From Pyramidobacter piscolens W5455 (GTDB lineage Bacteria > Synergistota > Synergistia > Synergistales > Dethiosulfovibrionaceae): a stretch of 64,000 nucleotides of DNA. The translations under genes were made by a program, and so were the position numbers. The DNA lies in the NCBI RefSeq assembly GCF_000177335.1, contig NZ_ADFP01000071.1:1-64000 (forward strand), written 5' to 3'. Every line of letters starts with the position of its first letter. Positions within the stretch are counted from its first letter, which is position 1. Shown here piece after piece: positions 12,892-62,396 of this stretch. Under the pieces are notes generated by a model, which did not search any database, was not told the origin of the DNA, and was given only the letters and a program-made list of their open reading frames with translations.

Positions 12892-13491
12892 TCACAGAGA
12901 AAGAGTATTGCAGGCAAGCAAGGTGGAAACGATCTCGAACATGTTGGAGACGATCCCGACCCCGACTTTTTCCATCAGGCCGAAGTGCTTCAGGCAGGTC
13001 CCGCAGACAAGCACCGTGCCGCCCCGCGCCACATAATCGCGAAGCGTTTCGGCGCTGGACGTGTCCCGTTCCGCAAGCTTGACGCCCTCGTTCATCAGGG
13101 CGATCACGGCCGGGCGCTCGTTTTCGTCGTACTGTACCAGCGTGCCGAGAAACGCTTTCATCAGCACTTCGCCGAGTTGCGGATCGTCGCCGCCGATTCT
13201 GCTGTGAGCGATGAAAACGGCGTTCTTCAGTCTGGCCGACGGCATCAGGTCGCAGCCGCAGAATTCGGGAGCCGGCAGCGAACCGTCGCGGGTGCCGGTG
13301 ACGGTGAAATCTTTGCCTTCGCCGCTGACCACGGCTCTGTAGCCCTTGCTTTCGAAAAAGCGCGAGACGTTCTGCGTGGCGGGGACGTTGTCCACGCGCA
13401 CGGCGACGGCGTCGGGATTGTCGGCGACGGCGTTTTTGGTCATGATCACGGGTTCGGGGCAGGCTTTGCCTCTGGCATCGATTTGAATCAT
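12892..13491 (-). CDS. yedF: Selenium metabolism protein YedF (TusA-like plus DsrE-like domains)
   Basis: The 199-residue protein has an N-terminal TusA/SirA-like domain (MIQIDARGKACPEPVIMTK, with the CPxP motif Cys) and a C-terminal DsrE-like domain (LKNAVFIAHSRIGGDD to GTVLVCGTCLKHFGL). This is the architecture of the YedF family that co-occurs with selenium-use genes. It may bind or deliver selenium, but the exact role is not established. It is divergent from selA. ATG 13491 has GGAGG 8 nt upstream; the frame is open further but lacks a better site. Confidence 0.92.
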   Translation of the reverse strand: MIQIDARGKACPEPVIMTKNAVADNPDAVAVRVDNVPATQNVSRFFESKGYRAVVSGEGKDFTVTGTRDGSLPAPEFCGCDLMPSARLKNAVFIAHSRIGGDDPQLGEVLMKAFLGTLVQYDENERPAVIALMNEGVKLAERDTSSAETLRDYVARGGTVLVCGTCLKHFGLMEKVGVGIVSNMFEIVSTLLACNTLSL

Positions 13492-13599
13492 TTTTCTTTC
13501 CTCCAATTCCAATATTCGTGAGATAATAAACGACGACAATAATGATTATAGCATTCAAGGTTAAAAATGCTACTCGAAATTTACTGTGGGAGCGTGTTC

Positions 13600-15030
13600 A
13601 TGTTGATTAAGAAGCAGAGTAAGGTCGAGTCCGTTCAGGAGGTAATGCGGTCGCTTCCTTCCATGGAAAAAATTCTCACCGACGGCCGCTTGGGCGAATT
13701 CGACGGCATTATCGACCGCGACAGTCTCAAACGCATGTGTCGCGACGCTCTGGAACGCTGGCGCGACATGATTCTCGACAGAGAAGTGCTGAGTTTTGAC
13801 GGCGACGTTTTTTTTGCGGAACTGCGTCAGGAATTGAAACGTCGGCTGCGTCCCAGTCTGCGTCCCGTGCTGAATTGCACCGGCGTCGTGGTGCACACGA
13901 ATCTCGGGCGCTCCTGTCTTTCCGCCGAGGCGGCCGAAGCGGCGCGCGCGGCCGCCTGCGGGTACAGCACGCTCGAGTACAATCTCGAAAGCGGCGCGCG
14001 CGGGCACAGGAACTTCCACGTGGAATGGCTTCTTTGCCAGCTGACGGGAGCCGAAGCGGCGCTCGTCGTGAACAACAACGCGGGCGCGGTGCTGCTGGTG
14101 CTCGCCGCGCTGGCCGGCAAAAAGGAAGCGGTCGTGTCCCGCGGGGAGCTGGTGGAGATCGGCGGTTCGTTCCGCATTCCCGACATCATGAGCTTCGCCG
14201 GGGCCCGCCTGGTGGAGATCGGCTGCACGAACCGCACCCACTTGAAAGATTACGAAAACGCGATTACCGACGAAACGGCGATGCTGCTCAAAGTCCATCC
14301 GTCGAATTTCCGCATTACGGGGTACGTGTCCCTGCCGCTCCGGGAGGATCTGGCCGAACTGGCCCATGCCAAGGGGCTGCTGATGATGGAGGATTTGGGA
14401 AGCGGCATTCTCGTGGACGCGCAAACGCTGGGGCTTGAGGGCGAGCCGACCGTGAACGAGTGTCTCGAAGCCGGCGTTGACGTCGTCACTTTCTCGGGGG
14501 ACAAACTTCTCGGCGGTCCGCAGATCGGCGCCATCGTCGGCAGGAAAGAGATCATCGATCGGATCCGCAAGTACCCGCTGCTGCGCGCTTTGCGCTGCGA
14601 TAAAATGACGCTGGCCGCCATGGAGGCAACGCTCCGCATTTATCTTCGCGGCGACTGGGAAAAAATCCCTTCACTCGGCATGATCGCCGCGTCTGAAGAC
14701 GAATTGAAAGCGCGGGCGGCCGCCTTGAAAAAAAGAATTGATGCCGAGCTGGCCGATTTCTGCCTGCACACGAAAGTCGTGCCGGTCCAAGACGCCGTCG
14801 GCGGCGGCGCTTATCCGGAACGTCCGCTGCCGGGCTGGGCGGTTTCGCTGCTTCCGGCCAACGAGAATTTAAACGCCGGCATTCTGCAGGAACGCCTGCG
14901 CCGCTGTACTCTGCCCGTCGTCGCCGGAGCGCGCAGCAATGAGCTTTTGCTCCATATGCGCACGCTCCCGGCCGAGAACGAGAGCGTCTTGATGGATTCG
15001 CTGAGAGAAGCTCTGGTGACGGAACGATGA
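13600..15030 (+). CDS. selA: L-seryl-tRNA(Sec) selenium transferase (SelA)
   Basis: This PLP enzyme of about 476 residues converts Ser-tRNA(Sec) to Sec-tRNA(Sec) using selenophosphate. Conserved stretches include [15 protein letters not shown]-like sequence (here [15 protein letters not shown]), [11 protein letters not shown] and the PLP-lysine region [12 protein letters not shown]. Several starts are possible; ATG 13600 has a GGGAG site 7 nt upstream. The stop overlaps selB by 4 nt. Together with selB this shows the host can translate UGA as selenocysteine. selC and selD were not found in the window. Confidence 0.96.
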
Positions 15031-16946
15031 GCCGGCGCGAAATTTCGCTCGTGGTCGGAACCGCGGGGCACATCGACCATGGCAAAACGCAGTTGGTCAA
15101 AGCTCTGACGGGAATCGACTGCGATCGTTTGGGCGAAGAGAAAAAACGCGGCATCACGATCGAACTGGGATTCGCGCCGCTGGTCCTGCCCAGCGAGCGC
15201 GTGATCAGCCTGATCGACGTTCCCGGTCATGACCGTTTCATCCGGCAGATGGTGTCGGGAGCTTCCGGCGTCGACGCGGTCATGCTGGTCGTCGCTGCGG
15301 ACGAAGGCGTGATGCCGCAGACGCGGGAACATCTGGACATCCTGTGCCTGCTTGGCGTTCAGCACGGCATCGTCGCCATCACGAAAAAGGATCTGGTCGA
15401 CGAAGAGATGCTCGCACTCGTCGAAGAGGACGTCCGCACTCTGACGGCCGGCACGTTCCTCGAGGGCTGCCCGGTCGTGAGCGTCTCTTCGGTGACCGGC
15501 GCCGGCATCGACGAATTACGGCGCGCGCTGGAGCGTCTGGTGGATCAGGTAAAGCCGCGGGAGCGCAGCGGCGCTTACTTCATGCCGATCGACCGAGCGT
15601 TTCCCGTGGCGGGATTCGGCACGGTCGTCACCGGTACGGCCTACAAAGGGAGCATTGCTCCCGGCGAGGAGATCGAAGTCTATCCTTCCGGGCGGAGATC
15701 GCGCGTGCGCTCGGTGCAGGTCCACGGGAAAACCGTCGAGTCCGCCTATGCCGGACAGCGCGTCGCCATGTGCCTGAACGATCTCGATCTGAATGAGATC
15801 CGGCACGGCGACGTCGTCTGCGCGGACAGCGTCTACAAAGCGACATCGTGTCTTGACGTGATGCTCAAACTGCTCGGCTTCGTTCCCGAACCTCTGGAAC
15901 ATTGGCAGCGCGTCCGGCTTCACATCGGCACGTCCGACGTCCTGACCAGAGTTTCCCTGCTCGACGAAAAAAATCTCCGTCCCGGTCAGACCGCCCCCGT
16001 TCAGCTGGTTCTGGAAGAGCCGGTGGTCGCTTCGCTGGGGCAGCGCTTTGTGATCCGCTTTTACAGCCCGCTGCGGACGATCGGCGGCGGAGAAGTGCTC
16101 GTCCCCTATGCGAGCCGCCCCTCGGGCAGGAAACGCCGCGAATCGGAACGCGACCGTCTGGTCGCGCTCAGCGGGACGTTGACCCGCGAGGAACGGGTCG
16201 GCGCGATCGTGAACTTCGAGGGGAGCCTTTCCATGAGCGAACTCATGGTGCAGGCGCAAGAGCGCCGTCAGGACCTTGCCGCGGTCCTCGAGAAGCTGGA
16301 AAGCGGCGGCAAATTGGTGCGTCTCCACGTCGGCGACGGCATGATCTTTTCGGCGGAAAGCTATCGGAACGCCGTGGAAAAACTTCGTGCCGCAGCGAAG
16401 GCGTTCCATGCCGCTTATCCGCACCAGCGCGGGATCGCGCCGGAATCGCTGATCAATCAGGTCTTCTCTGAGTCGGAACGGAAAATCGGCCGCCTGATCC
16501 TGGAAAAGGCCGTCGAGCAGAGCCGGTTCAGAGTTGACGGAGACGTGCTGGCGCTGCCGAAGTTTGCAGCCGTCGACGACTCTGCGTACAGCGAGGCGCG
16601 GAAAAAACTGCTGGATCATTGTTCCAGGTGCGGTTTTCAGCTGCCGGAAATCGAGGCTTTGCCGAAAAACCTGAACATGACGGCCGGAGATTTTAGAAAA
16701 CTGCTGGATCAGCTGAAAAAGAACAATGAAGTCGTCGTTCTTGAAGGGACGTTTGTCCTCGCGGTCGAGATTCTCAATCCGCTTCTGGCCCGGCTGAGCC
16801 GGATCGAGGGAGGGTTCACGCTGGCGCAAGTGCGGGATTTGACGGGCAGCAGCCGCAAGTTCGTCCTGCCTGTCCTTGAGTACATGGACGGAAGAGGGAT
16901 CACGCGGCGCGTCGGCGAAAAGAGAATTCTCTTGAAAAAAGACTAA
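15027..16946 (+). CDS. selB: Selenocysteine-specific elongation factor SelB
   Basis: This 639-residue GTPase carries Sec-tRNA(Sec) to UGA codons marked by a SECIS hairpin. The G-domain has [38 protein letters not shown] and TKKD. The long C-terminal part is the expected array of winged-helix domains that bind the SECIS RNA. Length is normal and no domain is missing. It is translationally coupled to selA by an ATGA overlap and followed by a terminator. Confidence 0.97.
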
Positions 16947-61256: not shown

Positions 61257-61472
61257 GATTTTTTCCTCCGGCTTTCCTTGAGTTGTGAGCGGACTCGCAC
61301 GGCGCCTGACGGTGCAGAGCGTTTTTTCGAGGCCGCCGCTATTATAAAACAGATCCGTCGATTTCGTTCGTGTTTTTCGTGGCCGGATTTACGGTGCCGG
61401 GAACAGATGCAGGAAAGAGGCGAAAATTCCCGCCATGATGATCGAGAACGTTTTCACGCGGATACGAAAAAA

Positions 61473-61509
61473 GAGACCGACTCAGCCTGCAGCAGGCCGG
61501 GGCGGTCTC
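61473..61509 (-). terminator. Intrinsic terminator after the selenoprotein gene
   Basis: On the minus strand GAGACCG pairs with CGGTCTC, with inner GCCTG/CAGGC pairing, and six T residues follow. It lies 9 nt past the selenoprotein stop codon, consistent with 61519 being a true gene end. Confidence 0.8.
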
Positions 61510-61518
61510 GTCTTTTGT

Positions 61519-61857
61519 CTATGAGGCTGAAAGGATGCCGTCGATAGCGTCTTTCAGGTCTTCCCATTCGGGAATGCCGCGGAAGATCACCTTGCCGTTC
61601 AGCACCCAGGTGACTTCGCCGCCGCGCAGGCGATAGCGCAGCGTGTCGAAGAGAAATACGAAACAGCGCGGGTCGTAGAAATCGATGTCGAGGCGTGAGC
61701 CATACTCCTCTTTGAGCTTCATGTAAAGCTGACCAGCCGCGACGCGGTTGGCTGCACCGGGAAAATGTTTCAGCTCGTTCTCGGTGTAGATTGCCGTGCT
61801 TCAGCCGCAGCCCATAATGGGACGTTCACGATAGATCTTGAGTGCCGAAGTTTTCAT
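61519..61857 (-). CDS. Predicted selenoprotein (in-frame TGA as Sec19), thioredoxin-like
   Basis: Reading through one TGA (61803-61801) gives a 112-residue protein: MKTSALKIYRERPIMGCG, then U19, then STAIYTENELKHF, and a 3' half ending in VTWVLNGKVIFRGIPEWEDL. ATG 61857 has AAAGGAG 7 nt upstream. Coding-like sequence on both sides of the TGA, a C17-G18-U19 redox-type motif and a beta-alpha-beta pattern with a NGK-x-x-F-x-G-x-P strand suggest a thioredoxin-fold oxidoreductase. The fold is inferred. It is third in a phosphohexomutase-YbaK operon, followed by a terminator. Conventional annotation would keep only a 67-codon fragment starting at 61722. Confidence 0.82.
61752..61789 (-). promoter_or_regulatory. 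Candidate bacterial SECIS hairpin
   Basis: Starting 11 nt after the TGA, CT-CACCG-GAA pairs with TTC-CGGTG-AG (10 bp, with two A-C mismatches) under a 14-nt G/U-containing apical loop. Position and size match bacterial SECIS elements read by SelB, which lie within the coding sequence just after the UGA. Bacterial SECIS sequences vary widely, so this is supportive, not decisive. Confidence 0.5.
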
Positions 61858-61910
61858 GGGAAGCTCCTTTCTGCTCTTTCATCTCCAGGATGAAAGAGGG
61901 GGTCGGAAGA

Positions 61911-62396
61911 TCAAGCCTGAGGGGGCGGCTCTTTTTTGACGGCCGCTTTCTGCCCCTGGGTGTATTTGCGCAGTGTTTCCGGCGCCACGGGAAAGAAGGC
62001 GTGATCTGTGCCGGCCGCGGCCCAGACGATGGCGTAATTCCACAAATCCTCGTCCAGCAGCGCGGGAAGCGCCTGCGGGTAGCCGACGGGCGGCACGCCG
62101 CCGATCCTGAAGCCGAAATTTTCGAAAACGTAGTCGGGCGAAGCCATGGTGACGTGATGCCCTTGGCTGAGACGCTTGATCTTGCCCGAGTGGGCTTTGT
62201 TCGGACCGGACATGAGCACGAGCCATGGCTGTCCGTCGACCATGAAGATCAGGCTTTTGAGGATCTCGCCTGGCGTCACGCCGATCGCCTTCGAGGCGTC
62301 TTCGACGGTGAAGATGGTGGCGTCGCTGTGAATGATCCGGCCGTCGTAGTGAAGTTCGTCGAGGGCCTTCTGCACTTTTTCAACGGGATCGGTCAT
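61911..62396 (-). CDS. YbaK/ProX-type aminoacyl-tRNA deacylase
   Basis: The 161-residue protein is in the YbaK family of trans-editing deacylases, which hydrolyse mischarged aminoacyl-tRNA such as Cys-tRNA(Pro). Features are DASKAIGVTPGEILKSLIF, the catalytic-Lys/Gly region, and FGFRIGGVPPVGYPQALPALLDEDL. It lies 10 nt after the phosphohexomutase and 53 nt before the selenoprotein gene. ATG 62396 follows AAGGAGGTTCCC. tRNA specificity cannot be assigned from sequence. Confidence 0.9.
   Translation of the reverse strand: MTDPVEKVQKALDELHYDGRIIHSDATIFTVEDASKAIGVTPGEILKSLIFMVDGQPWLVLMSGPNKAHSGKIKRLSQGHHVTMASPDYVFENFGFRIGGVPPVGYPQALPALLDEDLWNYAIVWAAAGTDHAFFPVAPETLRKYTQGQKAAVKKEPPPQA

Follow-up and report, generated by a model that had tools for sequence, protein, structure and literature searches.

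Does an in-frame TGA near the start of a small minus-strand frame terminate the protein or specify selenocysteine (Sec), and what would the resulting protein do? The window considered here, i.e. the whole stretch of 64,000 nucleotides that was analysed, corresponds to contig C71 of a draft genome of 2.56 Mb, whose named relatives are Pyramidobacter (92% protein identity). On the minus strand, the frame opens with an ATG at 61857 and runs for 18 codons to a TGA at 61803–61801, after which 93 sense codons follow before the TAG at 61521–61519. The terminator-like stem that starts 9 nt past this TAG has the arms GAGACCG and CGGTCTC, and a terminator tool gives an inner stem at 61488–61474. The initial annotation, which had proposed a small thioredoxin-like selenoprotein, described this layout of Shine–Dalgarno sequence, 18 codons, TGA, 93 codons, TAG and terminator exactly to the base. 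No signal sequence is evident by eye, and the protein is probably cytosolic.

Table 1. Positions of the putative selenoprotein gene, its sequence elements and other genes of the window
Feature	Positions	Strand	Basis or remark
Putative selenoprotein gene (112 aa including Sec19; ends in TAG)	61519..61857	-	Homologues and alignment
In-frame TGA, putative Sec19 codon	61801..61803	-	TGA or TGC/TGT across 67/67 aligned members
Shine–Dalgarno sequence AAAGGAG	61864..61870	-	Sequence; retained in same-genus copies
Intrinsic terminator-like stem and T run	61467..61509	-	Sequence
Cys17, Sec partner in local Cys-Gly-Sec	61807..61809	-	Pyramidobacter and nearest relatives
Cys65 of DPRC motif, candidate resolving cysteine	61663..61665	-	Cysteine survey of aligned members
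Weak SECIS-like hairpin after TGA	61755..61786	-	CACCG/CGGTG stem; apical loop of 14 nt, second base G
YbaK/aminoacyl-tRNA editing domain gene, upstream	61911..62396	-	PF04073; order same in genus, not conserved outside
selA	13567..15030	+	TIGR00474, 554 bits
selB	15027..16946	+	TIGR00475, 369 bits
yedF	12910..13482	-	TIGR03527, 156 bits

The TGA codon and its counterparts in Synergistota

When whole genomes were searched across the phylum, 61 of 188 Synergistota genomes, covering 32 of 63 genera, gave relatives of the protein, and 67 genes, extracted with TGA read through, were aligned (alignment A1). At the column of codon 19 the aligned members carry either TGA (36 genes) or TGC/TGT (31 genes), and no other codon occurs there. 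Pairing of Sec and Cys at one column is a classic sign of a selenoprotein. Relatives conserve the sequence before as well as after the TGA, and comparisons inside the genus show each part to be under purifying selection, with dN/dS values of 0.10–0.49 for codons 1–18 where defined (few sites) and 0.18–0.28 for codons 20–111. The initial annotation had looked for support to homologues with Cys or TGA at position 19, which are those found here, and would have been refuted by a lack of conservation upstream of the TGA, which is not the case. Since the identical column is TGA in all six same-genus genomes and in 37 family members, the in-frame TGA is, from these sequence comparisons, neither chance nor a sequencing error. 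While TGA is a stop by default and an internal ORF does exist on the minus strand (61722–61519), the possibility that the TGA is a true stop, leaving a disrupted pseudogene, or else a protein of 67 residues that begins at the internal ATG at 61722, is scarcely credible given that 37 members of many genera share the TGA, that Cys otherwise occupies exactly that column and that the codons upstream are conserved under purifying selection.

Apart from Sec/Cys19, the near- or fully invariant residues of the alignment are Lys7, Pro63, Asp71, Arg74, Trp84, Gly94 and Pro96. The tree contains at least four Sec/Cys changes, and each of its two main clades holds Sec as well as Cys forms. Several genomes possess two or three paralogues, at times one Sec form with one or more Cys forms (loci L051, L054 and L046, L048 and L056, L066); G025 has two Cys copies with 1.7 kb between them, and G148 has two copies in tandem. 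Genome G032 carries a Cys form. A second in-frame TGA is present in just one of the 37 TGA-form genes, L026 (G121:C2:56596–56919), where at codon 85 it replaces a conserved Trp (TGG) of nearly all members, and this genome has another copy, L043, that keeps Trp at that position. Sequencing error, decay and recoding are alternatives for this second TGA, between which we make no choice.

Relatives were not found in the plasmids, phages and viral contigs that were searched. A contig search with the window protein alone returned just Pyramidobacter records and L005, the latter a chance peptide match in an unrelated protein; this search missed Synergistota members that are 40–50% identical and is therefore uninformative on other phyla.

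Decoding of the UGA codon

The window encodes SelA, SelB and YedF, as had been noted from the sequence at the outset (Table 1), and tRNA-Sec of the same genome is located on another contig, C51. The selD and grdA genes of this genome also contain an in-frame TGA, in the contexts SSGUAAK and ECFVUTA, respectively, which indicates by homology that UGA is used for Sec in this organism. When the machinery was compared by hand with the form of the gene across the genome list, each of the 36 TGA-form genomes proved to have selB and/or tRNA-Sec over cut-off, with selB over cut-off in 32; the four TGA-form genomes without selB are 65–86% complete and have tRNA-Sec. Genomes with neither selB nor tRNA-Sec (G035, G148, G150 and G157) have Cys forms only.

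Insertion of Sec at UGA codon 19 by SelB and tRNA-Sec is an inference from homology and from the machinery, and has not been measured. With Cys or TGA homologues at the same column and this machinery in place, the original proposal stands, and the gene at 61857–61519 would almost certainly encode a selenoprotein, a call that is made from sequence, without measurement of selenium in the product. It rests on the Sec/Cys pairing and not on a SECIS element.

The SECIS of the window copy remains unproven. Its hairpin has an MFE of -8.6; dinucleotide shuffles give z 0.16, i.e. no excess folding, and synonymous recodings give z -0.94. The hairpin of selD in this genome is, by comparison, strong (-23.4). 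The published bSECIS model specifies a loop of 3–9 nt with G in the first two positions, a spacing of 16–37 nt and an MFE of <= -7.5 (PMC13188914), and no hairpin inside these strict limits was found in the window copy, the 14-nt loop of which is too long. The limits are met by 50% of TGA forms versus 61% of Cys forms and do not discriminate between them. An RNAalifold consensus on 18 TGA forms yielded zero consensus pairs, and an Rfam scan of the region gave no match up to E 5. For the 45 nt after the TGA, the mean z against synonymous recodings is -1.40 in TGA forms (n=36) and -0.43 in Cys forms (n=31), a difference with a Mann–Whitney p of 4e-5 that is optimistic, as related sequences were treated as independent.

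Predicted fold, partner cysteines and possible function

AlphaFold2 models were obtained for the window protein (67-row alignment, pLDDT 86, pTM 0.77) and for a distant subgroup (34 rows, pLDDT 89, pTM 0.79), and the two agree. The modelled topology is a strand, a loop of ~25 residues that includes a short hairpin and a short helix, a long helix, a strand, a helix, two strands and a final helix. Foldseek comparison with the PDB placed thioredoxins top for both models and, for the window model, also mouse SelW, with modest scores (TM mostly 0.5–0.7, about 0.55; E-values mostly 4e-4 to 3e-3, the best 4e-4 to 1e-3). The predicted fold is that of a thioredoxin, remote from every solved member; the initial annotation, which had suggested structure prediction as a check, is supported in its thioredoxin-like claim by these two confident models and the fold matches. 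In the models, Sec19 sits in the loop that links the first strand to the long helix, which is the position of the active site in thioredoxin-fold enzymes.

An alternative is that the protein diverged from a known selenoprotein family, namely Brachyspira Sec.1/Sec.2 (PF13192), SelW/Rdx or the HUIPC thioredoxin-like proteins (NF047660). SelW (2npb) is among the fold matches, and there are weak sequence matches to PF13192 (5/67 members, best E 0.0027), NF047660 (6/67, best 0.022) and TIGR00411 (21/67, best 0.0011), but the curated cut-off is reached for none of these three models, and the Sec of Sec.1/Sec.2 lies on an N-terminal extension ahead of the Thioredoxin_3 domain (PMC5330540) and not after the first strand as here. 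We regard this origin as very improbable.

Cys-Gly-Sec, the motif named in the first description of the gene, does not hold as a signature of the family. Cys-x-Sec occurs in Pyramidobacter and its closest relative, and also in a few members further away, the others having CU, UC or UxC, so that the Sec/Cys position alone is invariant while the partner cysteine moves. A vicinal Cys-Sec pair (CU) is found in 16 Sec forms, and in 16 of the Cys forms the two residues on either side of the site include no second Cys. The DPR(C/N/S) motif ends with residue 65; a Cys at this place is found in 23 of the 36 Sec forms but in no Cys form (0 of 31). Sec/Cys and Cys65 have each changed about four times along the tree, and their association is not significant in independent pairs. 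In the model Cys65 comes directly after the second strand. The second strand of a thioredoxin sheet adjoins the first, and for this reason Cys65 is a plausible resolving cysteine, which is inferred without a measured Sec19–Cys65 distance.

It could be considered that the site binds a metal, a metalloid or selenium, the protein being a small thioredoxin-fold carrier or chaperone with Sec and the neighbouring Cys as ligands. The CU pair of the 16 Sec forms, with UC or CxU in others, has parallels in the CU motifs of the organometal-related SaoL, SaoC and HgcA (PMC13188914), but the 16 Cys forms that lack a nearby second Cys do not fit with such a role, neither a transporter nor MerB nor a metal gene was found adjoining the gene, and the fold is a redox-protein fold. 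Binding of this kind is in our opinion improbable.

The best explanation overall is that the gene encodes a thioredoxin-fold Sec redox protein, and we consider this likely. Most likely it would act on a protein disulfide, or on some small substrate in oxidised form, by thiol/selenol redox exchange, with Sec as the attacking residue and a cysteine close by (in the window protein Cys17 and/or Cys65) resolving the intermediate; elsewhere in the family the resolver may be the vicinal Cys or a Cys at +1/+2. Cellular reductants would then regenerate the protein. A redox function of the fold is probable as an inferred activity, and its substrate is unknown, as the neighbours are mostly unrelated housekeeping genes.

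No operon conserved phylum-wide was found, and the neighbours vary across the phylum, including genes for ribosomal protein S9, transaldolase, PCMT, a LysR regulator, uracil-DNA glycosylase, a chloride channel and a lipid A acyltransferase. In the genus, the gene is preceded by the YbaK-like gene and by another that we take to be phosphomannomutase-like. The YbaK-like protein scores 46 of 153 bits, far under the Cys-tRNA(Pro) deacylase cut-off, and judging by this score its substrate specificity may differ from that of the deacylase.

In eight genomes from four genera (G104; G025, G026, G028 and G029; G038; G043 and G044), an EFR1 ferredoxin-family gene is directly upstream (loci L012–L016, L021, L027 and L030), separated from the family gene by 23–32 bp where read. 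The two EFR1 genes that were scanned match NF038196 with 129–134 bits, and the identity of EFR1 across the paired loci goes down to 44%. A role of EFR1 as electron donor in this subgroup of genera is inferred from gene order only and is put forward as a tentative, rather doubtful suggestion. More speculative still is a phylum-wide selenoprotein family with a fixed Sec/Cys position and a partner Cys that has moved repeatedly (CxU, CU, UC, UxC, and a long-range Cys65 confined to Sec forms), where in part of the phylum a dedicated EFR1 flavodoxin-ferredoxin protein would do the reduction, making a ferredoxin-driven selenol reductase system.

Significance and comparison with known families

Synergistota has been described as rich in selenoproteins (PMC5029168), and two of its genomes were examined with deep-Sep, which reported no new family in them (PMC12013277). 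None of the 67 members came near a curated cut-off in Pfam or NCBIfam, and the named NCBIfam/Pfam models of the 119-family prokaryotic selenoprotein catalogue of 2026 were unmatched (PMC13188914), those entries that are defined solely by cd or PTHR models being outside the comparison. The gene had been left without a named selenoprotein family from the start, and these searches bear that out. It is the founding member of a Sec/Cys family with a predicted thioredoxin fold, widespread in Synergistota and new by the sources checked, which we name the Synergistota Trx-fold Sec/Cys family. About a third of the sampled Synergistota species have this family, for which there is neither a Pfam/NCBIfam model nor an entry in the 2026 catalogue, so its Sec forms have presumably been overlooked or cut at the TGA in annotations. 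The occurrence of Sec and Cys forms on one scaffold, with partner cysteines at several positions, offers a natural test of why Sec is kept and of how the resolving cysteine evolves, while the EFR1 linkage provides a concrete electron-donor hypothesis.

Two further candidates were rejected. DUF1462/YuzD, a small thioredoxin-fold protein to which a distant likeness had been offered as a guess in the initial annotation, found no support, with PF07315 matching 0/67 members at E <= 0.1 and absent among the PDB sequence matches. RNA-free ribonuclease P (8ssf) was matched by the A1 profile at E 0.0019 over 38 residues, probably by chance, since the fold and the remaining sequence disagree.

Among known systems, thioredoxins, including the MJ0307-type (TIGR00411; PDB 1nho, 1v98), resemble the predicted topology with an active residue after the first strand, and TIGR00411 has weak sequence similarity to the C-terminal half of the window protein (12.9 bits against a cut-off of 92.75; PF00085 is unmatched). 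Unlike thioredoxin, the Synergistota family has no CxxC and has a longer loop before the long helix, together with the invariant Sec/Cys19, a conserved D/N-P-R motif and Trp84. Selenoprotein W is also a small thioredoxin-like protein whose Sec follows the first strand, in a loop, whereas the Synergistota family has no CxxU and no Pfam Rdx match, and identity over the fold alignment is 17%. The Brachyspira proteins Sec.1 and Sec.2, the first of which is given a CxU motif (PMC13188914), are likewise small selenoproteins with a thioredoxin domain; in the Synergistota family, Sec is instead placed inside the predicted fold itself.
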